In this document: one piece after another, positions 5,085 through 64,000 of the stretch
How positions within the stretch are numbered: position 1 is the first letter of the stretch
How the letters are laid out: the number at the start of each line of letters is the position of its first letter
NCBI GenBank assembly: GCA_902826165.1
Contig: CADEDV010000013.1
Span: 1-64,000 of the forward strand
Length of the DNA: 64,000 nucleotides
Source: an uncultured Bacteroidota bacterium
Lineage (GTDB): Bacteria; Bacteroidota; Bacteroidia; Chitinophagales; Chitinophagaceae
Direction of reading: 5' to 3'
The notes under the pieces: model-generated
Databases searched by the model: none
Seen by the model: the letters and a program-made list of their open reading frames with translations, nothing else
Told to the model about the DNA's origin: nothing
Position numbers and translations under genes: made by a program

Positions 5085-6359
5085 TTACTGCTCGACAAAA
5101 GTCATTACACTTTTAGCAGGTATGATATGCTCAAAACTATTAGCCGTAATTGTAATCGCCTGGCCTTGCTCTGCATTTTTAGACGAAGTAGTTACATAGG
5201 GAATAACCGCTGTTGCCGAGCCACCCTGGAATGTAATTTTTTGCTTTACATCATAACTGCCCCTGTTAATAGCCACTACTACTTTTTTGGTGCCATTTCT
5301 ATATGCCGATATCAGTACTTCGTTCCTTGAATTGGCACCGGCACCCAGGCGTACAGCACCTGGTTTAACAAATCTCGCAAAATGTGACATCATGTAGCCT
5401 CTTTTTGTAACCTGCCCATCCTGGCCAATGAGACCATAAAACCTTTTTCCGTACCACCATATATAGGCATTAAAATTGGCTTTGGTAAAGCAATCATGTA
5501 TTTCAATAGCTGTATTGATGTTGGCGTCTAAAGTAGTAAGGGTATCCAAATGTTCGGTCATCCATACTTCCTTGCCGAGGCTTTTAGCCGTTGCATTTTC
5601 AACCAACCCTCCGCCATATAAATGGGTACCTATTATATCAAGATTAGCAACGGCACCGGGATCACTTAAAATAGTATTGACATAGGTTTGATTATTATTC
5701 ACCAGTTCAGGTGCCATTAATCGGGTAGCAGTAACCAGCCCTCCCTGGTTTTTTAAGAAGTCTCTCATTTCGGTGGCTGTCCAGACACAACTTTCATAAT
5801 TGGGATCCCAGTCCGGTTCATTCTGCACAGAAACAGCTTCTACTGGAGCACCGTTTGCTGCCATATAAAGAGCAAAATCATTTAAATACTTTGCATACGC
5901 AGCTGCGCTGTCAGGAATCAGCTTCCCCCCAATAATATTGTTATTGGTTTTCATCCTCGCAGGCGGGCTCCAGGGGCTGGCAAAAACTTTGGCACCCCGC
6001 TGAATGGCTGCTTTGGCATGATTCAATTCTGTTGCACGCCAGGCATCATCGGATGCGATCCTGATCCTCAGGAAATTTAAACCGACCTGGCCATTACCTG
6101 AACCAAAAAGCCGGTCAAATTCTTCTGTCGTCAAAACCGAAGTATTAGGCGGTGTAAAAACAGTAGCACACCCGAAACCCTGTATTACCTGGTTGTTTTC
6201 ATTAGCCTGAATAGTGACATCTGCATAAACAAGAGGTGTGGTACCTGTGCTGGTATCAGTTCCTTTTTTGGAACATGCTGCTAATAAAATAATAACCAGG
6301 AGAAATTGCTTCGATGAATTTATATACTTACTGATGCTGGCCATATATTGATCCTTCAC
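5085..6359 (-). CDS. GH30 glucuronoxylanase, lipoprotein
   Basis: This endo-xylanase most resembles GH30 subfamily 8 (XynC type), which cleaves xylan at positions set by a (methyl)glucuronic acid side chain. A lipoprotein signal (LLVIILLAAC, lipidated Cys29) implies attachment to the outer membrane. The (beta/alpha)8 domain has the acid/base Glu181 in VSVQNEPDWDP and the nucleophile Glu269 in VWMTEHLDT. WWYGKRFYGLI and KRGYMMSHFARFVKPGAVR match the XynC region that includes an Arg contacting glucuronate, and a C-terminal beta-sandwich ends the protein as in that subfamily. It lies downstream of susC/susD but beyond a terminator, so it probably has its own transcript. Met6 is an alternative start. 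Confidence 0.88.
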   Translation of the reverse strand: MKDQYMASISKYINSSKQFLLVIILLAACSKKGTDTSTGTTPLVYADVTIQANENNQVIQGFGCATVFTPPNTSVLTTEEFDRLFGSGNGQVGLNFLRIRIASDDAWRATELNHAKAAIQRGAKVFASPWSPPARMKTNNNIIGGKLIPDSAAAYAKYLNDFALYMAANGAPVEAVSVQNEPDWDPNYESCVWTATEMRDFLKNQGGLVTATRLMAPELVNNNQTYVNTILSDPGAVANLDIIGTHLYGGGLVENATAKSLGKEVWMTEHLDTLTTLDANINTAIEIHDCFTKANFNAYIWWYGKRFYGLIGQDGQVTKRGYMMSHFARFVKPGAVRLGAGANSRNEVLISAYRNGTKKVVVAINRGSYDVKQKITFQGGSATAVIPYVTTSSKNAEQGQAITITANSFEHIIPAKSVMTFVEQ

Positions 6360-6568
6360 TGTTTCCTGTGAACTATTTTATTCTTATTCCGAATATTGCA
6401 GCCTTTCTGTCGTTGACTTGAAGTGACTTTCGGTTGTAGCAAATATGACGCTGGTTGACATAGCATTATCAGTTACCTGCAATGGTTGAGTCCTTTTATC
6501 TGCCATCCATTAAATGAGTAGCTGAGTATTTATTAAAAATCGAAACTTCAAAAAAGATAATTAAAAAT
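6360..6568. other. Upstream region of the GH30 gene
   Basis: This spacer between the susD terminator and the GH30 start should contain the GH30 promoter if that gene is transcribed separately. The nearest -7 candidate is minus-strand CATATTTG (plus CAAATATG near 6441), which differs from TAnnTTTG at the first base. No copy of the LacI-type palindrome found at 12044 is present. Confidence 0.3.
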
Positions 6569-6594
6569 GAGAGAGGTGAAGAATCACCTCTCTC
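6563..6594 (-). terminator. Terminator after susC/susD pair 1
   Basis: A perfect 11-base stem (plus-strand 6569-6579 with 6584-6594) has a four-base loop. On the minus strand it is followed by ATTTTTAA. It lies 40 bases after the susD stop and separates the SusC/SusD unit from the GH30 gene. Confidence 0.8.
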
Positions 6595-6633
6595 TGTAAC
6601 GACTGCTGCTTGCTTTGCTCAATGCTTAAATTT

Positions 6634-8613
6634 TTATTGATAATTAGGGTTTTGATAAGCCGCCTTTTCTTCCGGTGTCATTTCCATCCCATCAAGCTGG
6701 CCCTGTGGGATAGGCCGGATATAATGAAACGGCTGGATAGTACGGGTAAATGTTTGCGGAGTATGGGCACCATAGGTTGCTGCACAAATTGAGTAGGAAC
6801 CTGCGAGTTCGTTCCACTTTTGGGTACGAACCAGGTCAAACCAACGATGACCTTCCCCGAAATATTCACGGGAACGTTCTGCCAAAATATAATTAATGTC
6901 GATAGTAGCTGGAGTAGCTGCTATCATGGCTGCGCTATTATCTGCAACGAATGCCGCATTGTTTTTATTTGAAAATCTCCATTTACCAGCTCTTGCACGA
7001 AGTACGTTGACCAGGTCACGGGCAGATTTACCAGCTACTGTTGTGGCACCTTTTACGGCTGCCTCAGCTGCAACAAGATAAAGCTCTGAGAATTTGGCGA
7101 TTTTAAATGGACGGGTACTTGGAGCATTGGGCTCACCCAGACCAACATTTCCGGTACGATATACTCCCATCTTCCAGAGATTGGGAAATACAATCCTGCT
7201 TATTCCACTGGGAGCGATCACAAAATCAGCACGGCCGGGTAACACACCTGCGCCGACGTTACTATACGATTTTCCCGGGAAATTTGCCCCGGCAGAATAC
7301 ACAATACCAGCAGCCTGTGAATCATACTCCAGGAAACTGAGTATAGGGTTTCCCGGAAGAACGGGCAAATCGTTAGCATTGTAAAGTGTTGCATTTGCGG
7401 TTCCGCCTTTAGGCCAGTTGCCCCTGAAAACAGTAGCAAATGTTCCATCATAGCGGGAATCAAGTGTTTTTTCAGCAAACGTGTTGGTAAATACTTCGAT
7501 AGGAGGAGCCATCCGGGTATAAGGACGTCCCAAACTTTGATCAGCTTCCCGCTGAACAGAACTAATAGCAGCACCTGTACCATCAGGATTTGCCGCACTC
7601 CTTATTACCGTGTAGTTCCAGGTCACCATCCAAACACAAGAGTTTCTGCCATTACCCAATTCACTTTGAAAACCGGTGAGAGGAGATCCGTTATAAAACT
7701 CACTTTCCTGTGTATGGTCGGCATACAGCAGCATTTCTTTGTTACGGTCATTACCTCCTACATGTACGTCATAAAAAGTATTCTCTAAGCCAAAGGATCC
7801 GGGATTATCAATGCCTTGTACAGCGATATCATAGGCAGCCTGGAAATACCATTGAGCATCATGACCATCCGGGTCTGTTCTTGGAGATGCAGGATAAGTA
7901 GGAATATTGTTCGGGTTTTGCAACCACCAGGCATATGTCAAGTAAGCTTTCGCCAGGTAAAGACGGGCCAGCGTTTTAGTGGCTCCACCAGTTACCCTTC
8001 CTGTAGCTGGTAAATCATTTACTGCTGTTAACAAGTCAGGAAAAATAGCTTTCGTATAAACTTCAGGCACTGTGTTTCGAACAGATGTTCTTGATGCAGT
8101 AGTATTGAATTTCAACTCTCCCGAACCCAGGTCCAAAGGCACACCGCCAAATGTTTGTACTAACAGGAAATAATCAAAAGCACGGAAAAATCTCGCCTCT
8201 GCGATCAGTGGTGCAGAAATACCCACAGCGGAAGCATTCTCAATAATTCCGCTGGCGGTATTAATATTAGAAAAGGCTGTTCCCCATAATGCATCAGACC
8301 GGCTACTCGCAGCTGTTATGTTTCCAACACCGGTGTTATCCATGTCCTTAAAGTTCTGGTCAGCACTTTGGGCATAGGTATATTCGTCAGTCCCGGTTTC
8401 TAATGTATTATAGTAATAAGGTTGACCAAATATGAACCGGAGGTGGGCATACTGGGATGTAATGCCACCCAATACACCTTTCTCTGTTTTGAAAAATTCA
8501 GGTGTATAAATACTGCGTGGCTGCTCATCCAGAATTTTACTGCATCCTGAAATTATCAGAATGAAAAGGGTTGATACAATGACAGATTTTATTTGTGTTT
8601 GTTTCATAATCAT
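6634..8613 (-). CDS. SusD/RagB-like surface glycan-binding lipoprotein (pair 1)
   Basis: This is an outer-membrane lipoprotein that caps the adjacent TonB-dependent channel and binds oligosaccharides. The lipobox IISGC lipidates Cys24 (Met3 is an equally good start). The N-terminal SusD-like segment SKILDEQPRSIYTPEFFKTEKG and the C-terminal ILAERSREYFGEGHRWFDLVRT are family hallmarks. At 659 residues it is longer than the other two SusD proteins here, which suggests extra loops at the glycan face. It starts five bases after the susC stop. The neighbourhood (GH30 and, divergently, the xylan enzymes) suggests xylo-oligosaccharides as ligand. Confidence 0.93.
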   Translation of the reverse strand: MIMKQTQIKSVIVSTLFILIISGCSKILDEQPRSIYTPEFFKTEKGVLGGITSQYAHLRFIFGQPYYYNTLETGTDEYTYAQSADQNFKDMDNTGVGNITAASSRSDALWGTAFSNINTASGIIENASAVGISAPLIAEARFFRAFDYFLLVQTFGGVPLDLGSGELKFNTTASRTSVRNTVPEVYTKAIFPDLLTAVNDLPATGRVTGGATKTLARLYLAKAYLTYAWWLQNPNNIPTYPASPRTDPDGHDAQWYFQAAYDIAVQGIDNPGSFGLENTFYDVHVGGNDRNKEMLLYADHTQESEFYNGSPLTGFQSELGNGRNSCVWMVTWNYTVIRSAANPDGTGAAISSVQREADQSLGRPYTRMAPPIEVFTNTFAEKTLDSRYDGTFATVFRGNWPKGGTANATLYNANDLPVLPGNPILSFLEYDSQAAGIVYSAGANFPGKSYSNVGAGVLPGRADFVIAPSGISRIVFPNLWKMGVYRTGNVGLGEPNAPSTRPFKIAKFSELYLVAAEAAVKGATTVAGKSARDLVNVLRARAGKWRFSNKNNAAFVADNSAAMIAATPATIDINYILAERSREYFGEGHRWFDLVRTQKWNELAGSYSICAATYGAHTPQTFTRTIQPFHYIRPIPQGQLDGMEMTPEEKAAYQNPNYQ

Positions 8614-57217: not shown

Positions 57218-58324
57218 TTATTTTATTTTACTTAGAACATACGCAAGTCCTGACCGGTAGGCCTCTTTACTATTATAAAAAGTCTTTTGACTTAATTCAT
57301 CGATCGTATTTGTAAAGCCGGTCTGCAGGGAAGTTAATTCATTTATTTTTTGAGGTAATTTCCCCAGTTCAGCTGGTGAAATGGCAACTCCCAGCGAAGA
57401 ACGTAAACTATTTTCAATGGGTTCAATATCCAGCTCTTTCCAATCCGGGTTCATCTGCTTATAAGTAGTATCAATAAACAATACGGGTTTTCTCATTCCA
57501 AACGCAAATTCAAAAGCAATACCGGATCTGTCAGTTATGAGTATATCGGCAGATGGCAGCCTGTCAAAAACATTGGGTAACTCATCCATTGACATCTCTG
57601 GATTCTTGGCAATGAGTTGCTGAATTTTCCTAAACTCCTTTTTCTTTCTTTTTGCATACTCCGGGTGAGAGCGGAGAATAACCTTGTAGGGTAATTTTGA
57701 TAACAGCTGCAACAATTCTTCGATGCAGGTATCCAGGATACAACCCTCAAACCAGGAAGGGGCTATAAGAATTGTGGATTGATCATTACCCGTTGTCACA
57801 CTACTATGGCTATTCAGCTCATCCAATAATGGGTAACCATAAGGAATGGCCGTCTTTTGCCTTTGTCCATATAGCTCTTCCGCTTTCCTGATCTCCCTCA
57901 ACTGGTACTCACCTATACAGAAAATTGCATCATAGTGAAAAAAAGCTTTTTTCCGGTATTGCTGGTGTGTGCTCACTGCTGCATGAAACATATATACATA
58001 AGCTCCTACACCCGGAGATCGCTTAAATAAAAAATTATCCAAGTCCGGCATGGTCATGATCATCACATCCGCCCGGATACGGGAGAATAGAAACCCCAGC
58101 ATCCATTTCACATACAGCACATTCATTCCAGCCGGTGCTTTCTCTAATAAGGAGTCATTTTTATCAGAAGTAATATAACAAATACTGATCCCCGGTTCTG
58201 ACAGGAGGTCATCAATTAATTTTTTGAAATAAATAAAATAGTGACGGCTCTCTGCATAGAAAATCACCCGTTGCTTTTGCTGCAATAGCCGGTTCACCTG
58301 TGTATATTCAGAAAAAAAACTCAT
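57218..58324 (-). CDS. CDP-glycerol glycerophosphotransferase-like protein
   Basis: This 368-residue protein resembles the TagB/TagF family, which transfers an alcohol-phosphate unit from a CDP carrier to a glycan or lipid acceptor. Markers are KQRVIFYAESRHYFIYF, the central YMFHAAVSTHQQYRKKAF with conserved His, PYGYPLLDEL, VILRSHPEY and the SADILITDRSGIAFEFAF block. It is the last gene of the phosphonate operon, three bases after the reductase gene. A cytidylyltransferase domain in the first enzyme would supply a CMP-activated phosphonate, so this enzyme is the natural candidate for putting 2-hydroxyethylphosphonate on a surface polymer (inference). Confidence 0.8.
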   Translation of the reverse strand: MSFFSEYTQVNRLLQQKQRVIFYAESRHYFIYFKKLIDDLLSEPGISICYITSDKNDSLLEKAPAGMNVLYVKWMLGFLFSRIRADVMIMTMPDLDNFLFKRSPGVGAYVYMFHAAVSTHQQYRKKAFFHYDAIFCIGEYQLREIRKAEELYGQRQKTAIPYGYPLLDELNSHSSVTTGNDQSTILIAPSWFEGCILDTCIEELLQLLSKLPYKVILRSHPEYAKRKKKEFRKIQQLIAKNPEMSMDELPNVFDRLPSADILITDRSGIAFEFAFGMRKPVLFIDTTYKQMNPDWKELDIEPIENSLRSSLGVAISPAELGKLPQKINELTSLQTGFTNTIDELSQKTFYNSKEAYRSGLAYVLSKIK

Positions 58325-58327
58325 TCC

Positions 58328-59356
58328 TTAAAGATATTGCATGATCAGCTCTCTTAGCCGCCCCCGGTCAAATGCCACCGGATTATTCGCAAACCGTTCT
58401 TCATTCACTTCATCCAGCAGCGCTTCAATGATTGCTGATTTGTTAATCCCAAGTTCAGCCAGTGTTGTTTTCAACCCTGCATCCAGCATTACCTGCTGTA
58501 TCATTTCCTTCGCCGCAGATGAATCGTTGACTCCCAATAAAGAGCATAATTCATTACCAGGGCTATTGTAAATAAAAAACAGGGGTAGGAATAAAGCGAC
58601 TGCCTGTCCGTGTGGTATACTATGATTAGCCGTTAAAAAATAAGACAGGGCATGTGGTCCGGTGGTCCGGGTAATATTAATGGCGTTGCCAGCCTTGTGC
58701 GCAGCCAGCAGCATTTTTTCCCGGTCTTCACGGGAAGGTGAATGAACAGTCTTTAAAAAACTTTCTCTCCACAGGTGAATGGCATCACTTGCATAACCTT
58801 TTGACTCAACTGTTGCATTTTTATTCCAGTATGATTCGATAGCCTGTGCCAGGACATCCATTCCCGACACCGCTGTTTGATAAACGGGTAATGAATAAGT
58901 TAATCCCGGATCAAGCAGTACTACTTGTGGCAATAATTGCTGATGTACTAACGATATTTTTTTCTTCCCCTGGTAAACTACCGCAAAATGAGTAGCCTCG
59001 CTCCCTGAACCGGCTGTAGTGGGAGACACTATAAAAAAAGGAACGGGCAAAGAAGATTGAACCCGTTTGTAAATGATCGCTTTGGCAAGATCGATCACAC
59101 TACCACCGCCAATAGCAAGTAAAGCAGAACCCGGCTCTTTGTTAAACTCAGTCAGCGCTGACAGTATCTCCTGCTCCTCCACATTGGCTCCTCTTTTCTT
59201 ATACGACCTTGCGGATAATTCCTCCAAAAAAACTGGCTGTTCATCGAGGTGAAAATGCTCACCTGTAATAACAAATACAGAAGTAAAACCTGCTTTGCGA
59301 ATGGCTTCGCCTGCTTGCAACAAACTATTTTCTCCTTGTATTACCTGCTGCATCAA
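58328..59356 (-). CDS. Phosphonoacetaldehyde reductase (iron-containing alcohol dehydrogenase family)
   Basis: This 342-residue group III alcohol dehydrogenase has the NAD-binding LLAIGGGSVIDLAKAIIYK (in parts), the SPTTAGSGSEATHFAV block and a metal-site region (GPHALSYFLTANHSIPHGQAV in parts) with conserved His residues. It sits directly after phosphonopyruvate decarboxylase, so the expected reaction is reduction of phosphonoacetaldehyde to 2-hydroxyethylphosphonate, as for PhpC-type enzymes. No aminotransferase (AepZ) is seen, so the hydroxyethyl rather than aminoethyl product is favoured. Met2 is an equally good start. Confidence 0.85.
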   Translation of the reverse strand: MMQQVIQGENSLLQAGEAIRKAGFTSVFVITGEHFHLDEQPVFLEELSARSYKKRGANVEEQEILSALTEFNKEPGSALLAIGGGSVIDLAKAIIYKRVQSSLPVPFFIVSPTTAGSGSEATHFAVVYQGKKKISLVHQQLLPQVVLLDPGLTYSLPVYQTAVSGMDVLAQAIESYWNKNATVESKGYASDAIHLWRESFLKTVHSPSREDREKMLLAAHKAGNAINITRTTGPHALSYFLTANHSIPHGQAVALFLPLFFIYNSPGNELCSLLGVNDSSAAKEMIQQVMLDAGLKTTLAELGINKSAIIEALLDEVNEERFANNPVAFDRGRLRELIMQYL

Positions 59357-59363
59357 TGAACAT

Positions 59364-60491
59364 TTAATGATCCTTTCGCAAGGCTTTCATGAAATCATTT
59401 TTCCAATCAGTAGGATTACCGGCTGGCCTGTCCAGCTCTTTCCTTGAGTACTGATTGGTTCTTATCTCTACAAACTGTAATCCCGGAACAGCTAGGTCAT
59501 TATCCAACCACCGAATTAACTCACCTTCATTTAAGATCCGCACTGTTTTTGTATATCCCGAAGCCCGTGCGATGCTGCAACAATCAGCAAAGTAAGCTGC
59601 TGTTGGCTGGCCGCCGACTGATTCATGACTTCCATTATTGATAACAACATGAATAAAATCATTCTTGACCTGTTGTGCAATGACCGGCAATGCACCCATT
59701 TGCATTAACAAGGCTCCGTCGCCATCCAGCATGATGGTCCTTTCTGTTTTATTTTTGGCCACTCCCAATGCAATATGACTGGCATGTCCCATGGCGCCGA
59801 CACTTAAAAAATAATTGCTGACCTTTTTTTGCTGCAGCTCATTTTGCTCATAAAACTCACGGCCTATCTTACCTGTAGTACAGATCACCGTTTCGTCACC
59901 TTTTAACTGTGTAATGATCTTTTTGATCACTTCTTCCCGTACTAATGAATAATGATTCTCCACAGCTTTACCTTCATAGGGCTCAAATATTTCTTCCGGC
60001 ACCAGCAAGGCCACAGGTTTTTTACACTCAACAGCTTCTTCAATGGCATCATTGATAGTACTGAAACTTCCTTCCTCATTTTCATCAAGAAGGTAAACGG
60101 GCACTTCAAGCACTTCCAGCAGGTCTTTCGTAATTCTTCCCATTTTCACATGTTGTGGTTCATCTTTGGTACCCGGTTTTCCCCTCCAGCCAATCAGTAA
60201 CAACATGGGCACGGAATACACTTCTTTATCCGCCAGCGAGGTCAGCGGGTTGATGATGTTACCAAGCCCTGAATTTTGTAAATATACCAGCGGCAATTTC
60301 CCGGTGGCGAAATGATACCCCGAAGCCAGTCCTACGGCCAATCCTTCATTTGCCGTTATGATATGTTCATCCGGGGCGGAATGGTCCTGCACATATTTCA
60401 GAAAATGTTTCAGTAAAGAATCGGGAACACCGGTAAAGAATGAAAGGCCTTTCTTCTTCAGAAAATCATATAGTCTTCCGGGGCTGATCAT
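59364..60491 (-). CDS. Phosphonopyruvate decarboxylase
   Basis: This 375-residue thiamine-diphosphate enzyme (EC 4.1.1.82) makes phosphonoacetaldehyde irreversible in phosphonate synthesis. The opening [25 protein letters not shown] is typical, [20 protein letters not shown] (around residue 50) carries the ThDP-activating Glu, and [14 protein letters not shown] with [15 protein letters not shown] is the ThDP/Mg motif. The start codon overlaps the PEP mutase stop by four bases. The length is normal for the single-chain form. Confidence 0.93.
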
Positions 60492-61792
60492 AATTGTGAT
60501 GGGATTAATTTCAGCAGTTCACTGATGGGCATTAACCTGTCTTCTGCTTCTTTGGCACGGCTGTGTTGCAGAATTGATTCAGCAGTAGTCAGCATCGAAG
60601 GATAAGCACTACGTAATAAATGATTGGCATAGATAACAATATTAAACCCGGCTTCCTCGAGTTGCTGCCAGGTAATACTGTTATAGGTAGTGGGTACCGC
60701 TACTAAGGTTACTTTATTTTCGAGTTCTTTGTATTGCCTTGCAAAATCCAGGATTTCCTTTCCATCCTGCGATTTACTATGGATCATAATTCCATCCACA
60801 CCGGCTGCGATATAGGCTCTTGCCCTTTCCATGGCATCCGCAATCGTTTTACCCAATATCAAACTTTCAATGCGGGCAATGATCATAAAATCTTTGGTCA
60901 CACAATTCTTCTTACCGGTTCTTATTTTCTCACAAAAATCTTCAATACTATCCTGCTCCTGTGATGATTGTTCTTCCAGCAATGAATTTTTTTTCAGCCC
61001 GATCTTATCTTCGATAACTATGGCTGAAATGCCCAGCCTTTCCAGCGAACGCACCGTAAAAACAAAATGTTCGATTTTTCCACCTGTATCCCCATCAAAG
61101 ATCACGGGCTTGGTGGTCACTTCCAGTATATCATTCAATGTCTGTAACCTGGATGTAACATCAACGGCTTCAATATCCGGTTTGCCTTTTGCCATTGAAT
61201 CGGTCAGGCTGCTGATCCACATGGCATCAAACTCCTGTTGTATTCCTTTTTCGTTAGTGAAAGAAGTATTCTCCACGATCAGGCCACTTAAACCGTTATG
61301 CGCTTCCAGCACCCGCATACAGGGCTTCACAGAAAGAATTCTTCGTAGTCTTTTCAACCGTATATCGGCTGTAGTTCCTGTTTCCTTCAATGCTTTTTGA
61401 ATAGCCGTTGAACTGATACCACCGGTATAAGGGACTTCCACCAGTTCACCGCCCCACTCCTCCAATGTATCAATAACCTTCTGTCTTGTTGCCTGCTGCA
61501 CACCGGTTTTCCAGTCATCCCCGTGTACTACAAAAGCAGGTCTCAGCTTTTGGAGGTTGGCAGAATAATCCAGTGTTTCCTGCGGAATAACTTCACTCAC
61601 ACCGGCAATATTTTCAACAATGATCTTCCGCTGTTCAAAACTGAGATAAGGCACCCTTTTATAGCTGGCAATAGCTTTATCAGTCAATAATCCAATTACG
61701 ACTTTGCCCAGCTTTTTGCCTGTATTGATAATGTTCAGGTGACCCGGGTGGATCAGGTCTGCACTCATACCGATGTAAACGATCTTTTCCAT
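60488..61792 (-). CDS. Cytidylyltransferase - phosphoenolpyruvate mutase fusion
   Basis: This 434-residue two-domain enzyme starts the phosphonate pathway. Residues 1-135 are a nucleotidyltransferase of the TagD/glycerol-3-phosphate cytidylyltransferase type: [12 protein letters not shown] with HPGH at 15-18 and the ISSTAIQ signature near residue 130. Residues about 150-430 are PEP mutase (EC 5.4.2.9), which forms the C-P bond: [21 protein letters not shown] with the Mg-binding Asp, and the mutase-specific [11 protein letters not shown]. The likely role is synthesis of phosphonopyruvate plus CTP-dependent activation of the final phosphonate. It is first in the operon; a minus-strand -7 box lies at 61842-61849. 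Confidence 0.92.
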
Positions 61793-61882: not shown

Positions 61883-61913
61883 TCCCGGTTTGCTGCAAAA
61901 ACTGAGTTTTTAC

Positions 61914-63386
61914 ATGAAACGAATCTCTGCTGTTCCTTTATTCCTTTTCTTGTTGCCCGTCTTCTTTGTGCTGCACGGTTGTATGGAGAATTATGATTTT
62001 GTGCCGGTGAAAGATGCCCTTTTGCTTACCGGTCTTTATTGCGCAGTTTCAGCAATACTGGTATCATTTTTCTGGCTCTTTTACAGGAATATTCTCAAAG
62101 CAGGCCTGGTCGCTTTCAGCATCATGGCATTTCACTTTTTCTTTGGCAGTGTGCATGATAGCTTGAAGAAATATTTCCCGGAAACTTTTGCTTCCAAATA
62201 TTCTTTTATCCTTCCTGCGGCCCTGGTTCTTTTCCTGCTTGTACTGGTTATTATAAAAAAAAGAAAAAAGCCGCTGCTCAAACTCTCCTTCTACCTGAAC
62301 ACACTGTTGATGATTCTTATAGTAGTTGATTCCGTACTGCTGCTGACAAAAGTCATGGGTACTTCAAAACAGGAACAGCTAGCAATTCCGGATGGAATGA
62401 CTCCTTGTAAAGATTGCCCCAAACCTGATATCTATTTTATCATTGCGGATGAGTATGTTGGTAATACCACATTAAAAGAGAAATTCAGCTTCGACAACAG
62501 CGGTTTTATCAATGATCTTGCTACAAGAGGTTTTCATACGATTCCTTACAGCAGCAGCAATTATAATTTCACTCCTTATTCTGTTGCTTCCACGCTGAAT
62601 ATGGACTACCTGGATATACGGGTTCAAAAAAAGGCGGACCAGTCCGATCTTGCTTTATGCTACTCAACCATAAAAAATAACAGGTTTCTTAAATTTCTGC
62701 AATCCGAAGGTTATACATTTCGGAATTATTCCATCTTCGATTTCAAGGGACAGCCTGCCAGGACCGAAGTAACTTTTTTACCGGTAAAGACTAAACTGAT
62801 CACCGGGCAAACATTCCTCAGCCGTTTTAACCGGGATATCCGCTATCATCTAGTAACAAACCTGGAAACGAAAACAGAGATCAAAAGAATGGCGTATGGA
62901 TTTCTTCATAATAATGAGAATATTTATACACTGACCCAGCAGGAAGCAGTAATACCCTCTCCTGCACCAAAGCTGGTTCTGACCCACCTGCACCTGCCCC
63001 ATTATCCTTATTATTTTGATAAAGACGGAAAGGAACGGCCTCTTGAAAAATTGGTAGAAGGAAACCAGACGGATAAGGCCGCTTATGTGCAATACTTACA
63101 ATATGGAAATAAAAAATACCTTGAACTAATTGATCATATTTTAAAGGAATCCCGAACCCCGCCCATCATCATCCTGATGGGTGATCATGGCTTCCGTCAC
63201 TTCACGGAAGAAGTTGATCTCAAATACTGGTACCTGAACCAGCTGTCTTTATATACACCGGGTAAAAACTATGCTGCCTACAGCGACAGTCTTACCAATG
63301 TCAATTTTCTGCGGGCACTGCTCAATACAGAATACAAACAGCAGATTCCTTTGTTAAAAGACCAGGCCATATTCATTGAAGAATAA
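61914..63386 (+). CDS. Membrane-anchored alkaline-phosphatase-superfamily protein (sulfatase/LTA synthase-like) 1
   Basis: The start is placed at 61914 (MKRISAVPLF); the open frame reaches back to 61890. Of 490 residues, about 1-165 hold four to five hydrophobic segments, and the rest is a periplasmic domain of the alkaline phosphatase superfamily. PDIYFIIADEYVGN holds the metal-binding Asp, SSNYNFTPYSVASTLN is where the nucleophile Thr/Ser would lie, and ILMGDHGFRHF is the second metal site. Members move phosphoglycerol or phosphoethanolamine to envelope polymers, or act as sulfatases. Its place beside the phosphonate operon suggests envelope polymer modification, but the substrate is unknown. 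Confidence 0.82.
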   Translation: MKRISAVPLFLFLLPVFFVLHGCMENYDFVPVKDALLLTGLYCAVSAILVSFFWLFYRNILKAGLVAFSIMAFHFFFGSVHDSLKKYFPETFASKYSFILPAALVLFLLVLVIIKKRKKPLLKLSFYLNTLLMILIVVDSVLLLTKVMGTSKQEQLAIPDGMTPCKDCPKPDIYFIIADEYVGNTTLKEKFSFDNSGFINDLATRGFHTIPYSSSNYNFTPYSVASTLNMDYLDIRVQKKADQSDLALCYSTIKNNRFLKFLQSEGYTFRNYSIFDFKGQPARTEVTFLPVKTKLITGQTFLSRFNRDIRYHLVTNLETKTEIKRMAYGFLHNNENIYTLTQQEAVIPSPAPKLVLTHLHLPHYPYYFDKDGKERPLEKLVEGNQTDKAAYVQYLQYGNKKYLELIDHILKESRTPPIIILMGDHGFRHFTEEVDLKYWYLNQLSLYTPGKNYAAYSDSLTNVNFLRALLNTEYKQQIPLLKDQAIFIEE

Positions 63387-63414: not shown

Positions 63415-64000
63415 GTGCCTGTTTTAAAAAAAATACCGGTAGTCATTCAAAAATGGTTTCTCCATCTGTTCATGCTACCAGTATTCTTTGCACTAAGCAT
63501 TTATATACAGTTTGCAGGCCTCACCGGCAAGACGGATATTTTTATTGCATTCCTCGTTATTACAGCTGCACTTCTCTTAACTTTTTATCTTTTTACTCTC
63601 TTTTACAAAAACAAAAAAAAAGCTGCACTGGCTGCAACTATAACAGGGATATTGTACTTGTTTTTCGGGGATATTAAGGAATTACTTACAATATCTTCAT
63701 TACTCTCCCCGGTTGCCCATTATAAAATATTGTTGCCCCTGCTCCTTGTTCTTTATGCAGCTACCTTATTTAGGATCCGTAAGGCAGGATCAGTTAATAA
63801 TGCTACTGCTTACCTGAATATTTTATTCTTACTGTACTTATCCATCGAATTGTGGAATTTCATACAATTACCAGGTAGCAACCAAAAAAATAATAGCTTA
63901 TTTAGCCCCGGCTACAAACAATTATCCCCTGGCCCCCGACCTGATATTTACTTTATCGTTGCAGATGGCTACCCATCCACCCCCTACCAGCAAGATGTCT
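63415..64000 (+). CDS. Membrane-anchored alkaline-phosphatase-superfamily protein 2, 3' end outside window
   Basis: An open frame begins with GTG at 63415, 28 bases after the previous stop, and runs to the window edge with no stop in 195 codons. It encodes four or five hydrophobic segments and then PDIYFIVADGYPSTPYQQD, which matches PDIYFIIADEY of the preceding gene. It is therefore a tandem paralogue whose catalytic domain is cut off. The GTG start is chosen because it gives a complete first membrane segment (VIQKWFLHLFMLPVFFAL); the next ATG (63474) would cut into it. Confidence 0.75.
   Translation, partial: MPVLKKIPVVIQKWFLHLFMLPVFFALSIYIQFAGLTGKTDIFIAFLVITAALLLTFYLFTLFYKNKKKAALAATITGILYLFFGDIKELLTISSLLSPVAHYKILLPLLLVLYAATLFRIRKAGSVNNATAYLNILFLLYLSIELWNFIQLPGSNQKNNSLFSPGYKQLSPGPRPDIYFIVADGYPSTPYQQDV

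Follow-up and report, generated by a model that had tools for sequence, protein, structure and literature searches.

The gene at positions 57218-58324 (minus strand) of the window, as we call the whole 64,000-nucleotide stretch of uncultured Chitinophagaceae DNA analysed here, encodes a divergent PF04464 protein with a GT-B fold closest to that of TagF. Judged from its sequence and setting, this TagF-like enzyme probably attaches 2-hydroxyethylphosphonate (HEP) to the cell envelope. We consider it likely that the donor is CMP-HEP and not CDP-glycerol, that HEP is passed to a membrane acceptor, and that a partner protein acts outside. As far as the literature searched extends, a PF04464 enzyme as candidate phosphonyl-tailoring transferase would be new, and would represent a candidate donor-specificity switch within the teichoic-acid polymerase family. 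A phosphonate-transferase reading was put forward in a preliminary description of this DNA and is supported here as a hypothesis; to it may be added a recurrent EptA-like partner, which makes the finding more than a single annotation, and at least one separate recruitment of PF04464 to the same gene position.

The TagF-like gene (368 amino acids, ATG start) is the last in a minus-strand run of four, with intergenic gaps by ORF coordinates of -4, 7 and 3 bases. It is preceded, in operon order, by a cytidylyltransferase-PEP mutase fusion (60488-61792), a phosphonopyruvate decarboxylase (59364-60491; TIGR03297, 422.7 bits against a cut-off of 312.5) and an Fe-alcohol dehydrogenase (58328-59356; PF00465, 5.6e-26) whose cassette position predicts a phosphonoacetaldehyde reductase, producing HEP. 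In the fused protein, a CTP_transf_like domain (residues ~1-140) is followed by a PEP mutase (~149-432; TIGR02320, 401.4 bits, cut-off 319.55) in whose translation the EDKxxxxxNS motif is present. The closest named records among the matches listed for this protein, at 93-97% identity, are Chitinophagaceae/Chitinophagales MAGs; among 298 genomes from the order, matches at E 1e-40 or better were confined to its own genome (4,128,441 bases in 95 contigs, 97.19% complete). Operon neighbours scanned with Pfam comprise membrane phosphatase-superfamily proteins, an M42 peptidase, a UbiA-like protein and a LuxE-like protein, and genes named by eye beyond the window end include biotin synthase and Lon protease. 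Genes for sugar nucleotides or glycosyltransferases were not recognised between ~53.5 and 74 kb (by Pfam to the window end, by eye beyond it); an acceptor that is a lipid or a standing glycan would fit this.

The cytidylyltransferase domain that the preliminary description had noticed upstream is of the Fom1 kind. It matches PDB entry 5x3d, deposited as PEP phosphomutase and which we take to be the Fom1 domain, at E 3.1e-59 with 86 of 135 residues identical. The match to the glycerol-3-phosphate cytidylyltransferase 1coz is far weaker (E 2.3e-11), and the score of 50.2 bits with TIGR01518, against a cut-off of 165.4, marks only a distant relationship to that family. For the dehydrogenase, the best NCBIfam model is TIGR03405 (Phn_Fe-ADH) at 142 bits, under its cut-off of 423.7, and the best-scoring solved relative is 6jko, an entry named methanol dehydrogenase that is presumably a sulfoacetaldehyde reductase. 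Across the window dehydrogenase and 70 related cassette dehydrogenases, the second expected metal-ligand position is occupied by Gln (54) or His (15), with two gaps, and Tyr is found at a further usual histidine position; the metal-ligand roles of these positions are our assumption. Taken together, the first three genes predict CMP-2-hydroxyethylphosphonate (CMP-HEP), in keeping with the product proposed earlier. Synthesis of CMP-HEP by the N-terminal domain of Fom1 is described by Rice et al. 2019 (PMC6697681).

As had been remarked for its surroundings, no glycerol-phosphate gene lies beside the operon, and the observation extends to the genome: no glycerol-3-phosphate cytidylyltransferase (TIGR01518) scored over cut-off anywhere in this 97%-complete assembly. 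A genome-wide search also yielded no LicD and no second PF04464 protein, the TagF-like protein being the only one found. A CDP-glycerol route is thus not seen in the genome as sequenced.

The assignment to the TagF family, also anticipated by the preliminary description, holds. The Pfam model PF04464 (Glyphos_transf) matches the 368-residue ORF with 42 bits (E 7.5e-11; cut-off 22.1). This match is confined to residues 148-284, an NCBIfam search gave no match at E 0.001 and a PDB sequence search nothing better than E 0.28, so that the protein must be considered divergent. A profile of its family aligns with canonical PF04464 members at 99.1% probability (hhalign). The AlphaFold2 model, based on a 20-row alignment, has a pLDDT of 90.2; the top Foldseek match is TagF (3l7k, E 4.8e-11) and the second a TagF-like capsule polymerase (8qoy). 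VIA-align likewise ranks TagF first (3l7i, Z 20.7, 328 residues aligned with an rmsd of 4.8), tied within one unit with UDP-GlcNAc 2-epimerase (Z 19.8). Since the epimerase comes so close, the fold alone does not settle the family, and sequence does better than fold at placing the protein.

This structural tie is one of two points in favour of the idea that the protein is a GT-B glycosyltransferase or nucleotide-sugar enzyme, HEP being moved by some other protein such as the phosphatase-superfamily partner described below. The second is a related locus, L090, where the position expected of the transferase is taken by a YidC-phosphatase fusion and a TagF-like gene was not found in the fetched DNA. 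We regard the idea as unlikely: PF04464 scores over its cut-off, TagF heads both the Foldseek and VIA-align lists, the operon encodes a cytidylyltransferase and not a uridylyltransferase and, as follows, both catalytic histidines of TagF are kept.

Four residues, H114, H220, D265 and S267, are invariant in all 20 rows of the TagF-like alignment. When 61 rows were aligned in three modes, H122 and H259 of the canonical member L057 fell in the columns of H114 and H220; the two L057 residues in turn align with H444 and H584 of TagF. Histidine is present at both catalytic columns in 59 or 60 of the 61 rows. By sequence comparison, then, H114 corresponds to H444 and H220 to H584. The hhalign comparison of the two family alignments begins after H114, so that the equivalence of the first histidine rests on the multiple alignment. 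Like Staphylococcus epidermidis TagF (3l7i), the window protein combines a GT-B fold, two catalytic histidines and a D-x-S motif; it differs in the restricted extent of its Pfam match, in its predicted CMP-HEP donor with no CDP-glycerol supply seen in the genome, and in the segment beginning at the first histidine, where FHAAVSTH replaces the WHG-x-P-x-K of TagF and L057, the G-x-P-x-K following that histidine being absent.

The generality of the arrangement was assessed in loci that encode a relative of the fused enzyme: of 282 such loci confirmed in a species genome collection the best 80 were taken, giving 81 with the window. PEP mutase was found in all 81 (unpruned ORFs). Named strains are represented by L023 and L059 (Flavisolibacter longurius BT320) and by L031 (Daejeonella lutea DSM 22385). 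As slot gene we took the longest ORF that lies on the same strand and begins no more than ~450 bases past the last of the core genes; the slot could be read in 68 loci, as 11 contigs end too soon and two are without the core. Within this sample of the best 80 plus the window, the readable slots hold 23 PF04464-type genes, 14 LicD genes, one YidC-phosphatase fusion and 22 other genes, with eight empty. These labels derive from local HMMs; Pfam scores over cut-off in 21 of the 23 PF04464-type and all 14 LicD genes, and the two remaining PF04464-type genes, in L018 (cut, 277 amino acids) and L059, have no Pfam match at E 0.001. Pfam was run on 19 of the 22 other genes (L070, L078 and L079 being left out). 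Among them, the slot gene of an Acidobacteriota MAG (L086:6361-7125) is a CDP-alcohol phosphatidyltransferase (PF01066), which suggests a phosphonolipid product there, and those of L034 and L083 are soluble sulfatases; the rest of those scanned are a mixture of genes for glycosyltransferases, sugar nucleotides and export with others that are unrelated or unnamed.

PF04464, LicD and the CDP-alcohol phosphotransferases are families with CDP-linked donors. One or other of PF04464, LicD and PF01066 occupies 38 of the 68 readable slots among the best 80 of 282 plus the window, and none of them the other 30. Such a mixture would be expected of a slot for CMP-HEP transferases; alone it is no proof. 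Adjacency is partly built into the sample, because the 80 loci were found through their PEP mutase, and the locus counts are not independent, because the loci are related. On this reading, a single recurrent gene position, at which three CDP-donor families alternate, would name the likely transferase in several phyla.

A maximum-likelihood tree was built from 61 proteins, 32 from PEP-mutase loci and 29 controls (L094-L122) drawn from a profile search of 395 genomes of the phylum; TagF-like pieces shorter than 250 amino acids (L026, L061) and L007-L011 were left out. The window protein falls in an 18-row clade (support 100/99), every row of which comes from a PEP-mutase locus, with members from the Bacteroidota, Cloacimonadota, Myxococcota and Thermodesulfobacteriota. 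The tree contains several long branches. Sixteen of the 18 members sit in the slot; the exceptions are L031, where a TylF-like gene intervenes between the core genes and the TagF-like gene, and L088, where a partner gene comes first and the TagF-like gene lies past it on the opposite strand. The group formed by L057, L089 and L093 is separate from the 18, a single joint clade being rejected (AU p 0.0002), which indicates that the PF04464 family was recruited to the slot at least twice. A third recruitment, represented by L028, L035 and L039, was considered and dropped, since their union with the 18 is acceptable (AU p 0.443) and the tree leaves their placement open.

The separate group also bears on the possibility that the window protein is an ordinary CDP-glycerol or CDP-ribitol transferase lying beside phosphonate genes by chance. 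Family name and fold would be as expected for such an enzyme, and L057, L089 and L093 keep the canonical WHGxPxK in the same slot, from which it follows that the slot does not require its loss. Several observations make this possibility decidedly unlikely. The genome contains no TIGR01518 match over cut-off; three bases separate the TagF-like gene from the dehydrogenase; and the arrangement recurs in 23 of 68 readable loci, the slot being shared with LicD and PF01066. Furthermore, no close relative was found in the 394 other genomes among the 395 of the phylum searched by profile: the window protein itself scores 513 bits, matches in 37 other genomes reach at most 87 bits, and the fused PEP mutase occurs in four of those 37, in none of them near the PF04464 match. 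This counter-check of PF04464 outside PEP-mutase loci covered that one phylum.

Divergent from the operon, on the plus strand, lie two tandem genes for membrane proteins of ~500 amino acids. The first (61890-63386) encodes 498 residues; the second (63415-64000) is cut by the window end and is complete, with 502 residues, in L012:3416-4924. The complete second copy matches PF00884 with 32.4 bits (cut-off 25), and for the first no Pfam model scored over cut-off. The partner model (pLDDT 85.2) comprises five long N-terminal helices and an alkaline-phosphatase-superfamily domain, the best Foldseek matches of the latter being EptC and EptA, with a sequence identity of 11-17% in the fold matches. 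Six residues, D187, T228, H366, H371, D432 and H433, are invariant in 12 of 12 partner rows; by analogy with EptA we take them to be the nucleophile and metal ligands. The model suggests an EptA-like architecture in which the predicted nucleophile and metal ligands are kept. In VIA-align, YejM/PbgA (to our knowledge not a transferase), EptC and sulfatases score together at Z 18 to 20; hydrolase folds score alike. The partner shares its five N-terminal helices and phosphatase-superfamily domain with the EptA/EptC phosphoethanolamine transferases and LtaS, from which it is far removed in sequence, YejM/PbgA scoring equally.

Partner genes are present in 15 of the 18 clade loci in the fetched DNA, L025 being counted on a cut YidC part alone. 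Those without are L018 and L066, whose contigs end in or at the TagF-like gene, and L031, whose contig does not. Just two of the other 63 loci contain one: L016, a cut near-copy of the window locus, and L090. The association of partner and clade has a Fisher p of 1.2e-11, uncorrected for kinship. None was found in 18 LicD loci (fetched DNA, several contigs being short); the local models used, AP6, AP8 and YidC, do not reach other sulfatase-family genes near LicD. In L088 and L092, relatives of the partner adjoin the cassette in other orders.

In L017, L019, L020, L024, L025 (cut) and L077, a YidC-domain protein directly follows the TagF-like gene. Where complete these proteins are 860 to 1070 amino acids long; their C-terminal part is related to the partner (hhalign 98.0%), and some give weak or sub-threshold Pfam matches to the phosphatase superfamily. 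Fusions of YidC/Oxa1 (PF02096) with a C-terminal alkaline-phosphatase-superfamily domain are encoded at L017:14882-17923, L019:5633-8650, L020:14776-17814, L024:15038-18082, L077:4257-6839 and L090:13717-17118, the last being the one that occupies the slot itself. The fusions are in tandem in L017 and L024.

From the cassette, family, active-site residues, recurrence and partner gene, all of which are read directly from sequence, we infer the donor, the acceptor, the direction of transfer, how many HEP units are moved and what the partner does. In the pathway we favour, PEP would be converted to phosphonopyruvate by the PEP mutase, phosphonopyruvate decarboxylated, and the resulting phosphonoacetaldehyde reduced to HEP, which the N-terminal domain of the fused first enzyme would charge with CMP. 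On the cytoplasmic side, the TagF-like enzyme would then join HEP to an alcohol group carried by a membrane-bound acceptor, and the EptA-like partner would probably act on the product outside, for example by handing HEP to a surface glycan or lipid. A more specific, two-stage version is possible and is put forward tentatively: the TagF-like enzyme would load a membrane lipid with HEP from CMP-HEP, perhaps in the form of a chain, and the phosphatase-superfamily protein, in some lineages fused to YidC/Oxa1, would pass it to the outside. If true, the pathway would be the C-P counterpart of lipoteichoic-acid or phosphoethanolamine transfer. The chemistry would allow a chain to grow because HEP bears a hydroxyl; each added HEP would end in a new one, as glycerol phosphate does in teichoic acid. 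A poly(hydroxyethylphosphonate) polymer as such is nonetheless improbable.

The operon resembles the early fosfomycin pathway in its cytidylyltransferase-PEP mutase fusion making CMP-HEP (Fom1; predicted for the window), and differs in that a transferase gene follows, with no later fosfomycin-type gene recognised beside it. That CMP-HEP is here an intermediate to a small diffusible phosphonate, as in fosfomycin, the TagF-like protein having another role, is very improbable despite the Fom1-like cytidylyltransferase domain, as no small-molecule tailoring gene was recognised among the Pfam-scanned operon neighbours. Returning to envelope attachment, there is a parallel with the phosphonyl-tailoring (Pnt) pathways and their LicD-like transferases, which, according to PMC6697681, combine PEP mutase, CMP activation and a transferase of a CDP-donor family in one cluster, with a cell-surface target proposed as it is for the window operon. 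The Pnt enzymes characterised in that text act on 2-aminoethylphosphonate (AEP) and belong to PF12804, as against HEP (predicted), PF01467 and PF04464 in the window operon.

Published work thus already covers LicD-like transferases and the activation of phosphonates with CMP (PMC6697681), and the same source (Rice et al. 2019) terms the steps after C-P bond formation enigmatic. PMC9381506 names lipopolysaccharide choline phosphotransferase and arylsulfatase A near phosphonate genes. A term search of the main texts of PMC6697681, PMC8931226, PMC9381506 and PMC12723261 found neither 'TagF' nor 'CDP-glycerol'. Literature searches combining phosphoenolpyruvate mutase, CDP-glycerol and phosphonate returned no papers, and those combining pepM and glycerophosphotransferase returned papers unrelated by title; the literature covered, to which subscription papers did not belong, yielded no statement on PF04464 in phosphonate tailoring.

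Certain candidates were discarded in the course of the survey. UDP-GlcNAc 2-epimerases from L030 (13727), L036, L041, L069, L071, L082 and L091 had entered by drift of a looped HMM and were dropped, the Pfam scan among them, for L036 only, giving PF02350; the TagF-like family models were rebuilt without them. Own-genome copies L001 and L006 were excluded from the model seeds. A 772-residue protein in L037 was dropped as its PF04464 match was absent at E 0.05. In the slot gene L027:13536-14621 the order is swapped, a C-terminal PF04464 piece standing ahead of one that resembles the N-terminal part; this may be a fragment from a protein of several domains or the result of faulty assembly, and the gene is not relied upon. 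Finally, two Marinifilaceae loci each carry a pair of PF04464-type genes upstream, not downstream, of the PEP mutase (L063:8874-10004 and 6202-7236; L064:8917-10008 and 6130-7164).
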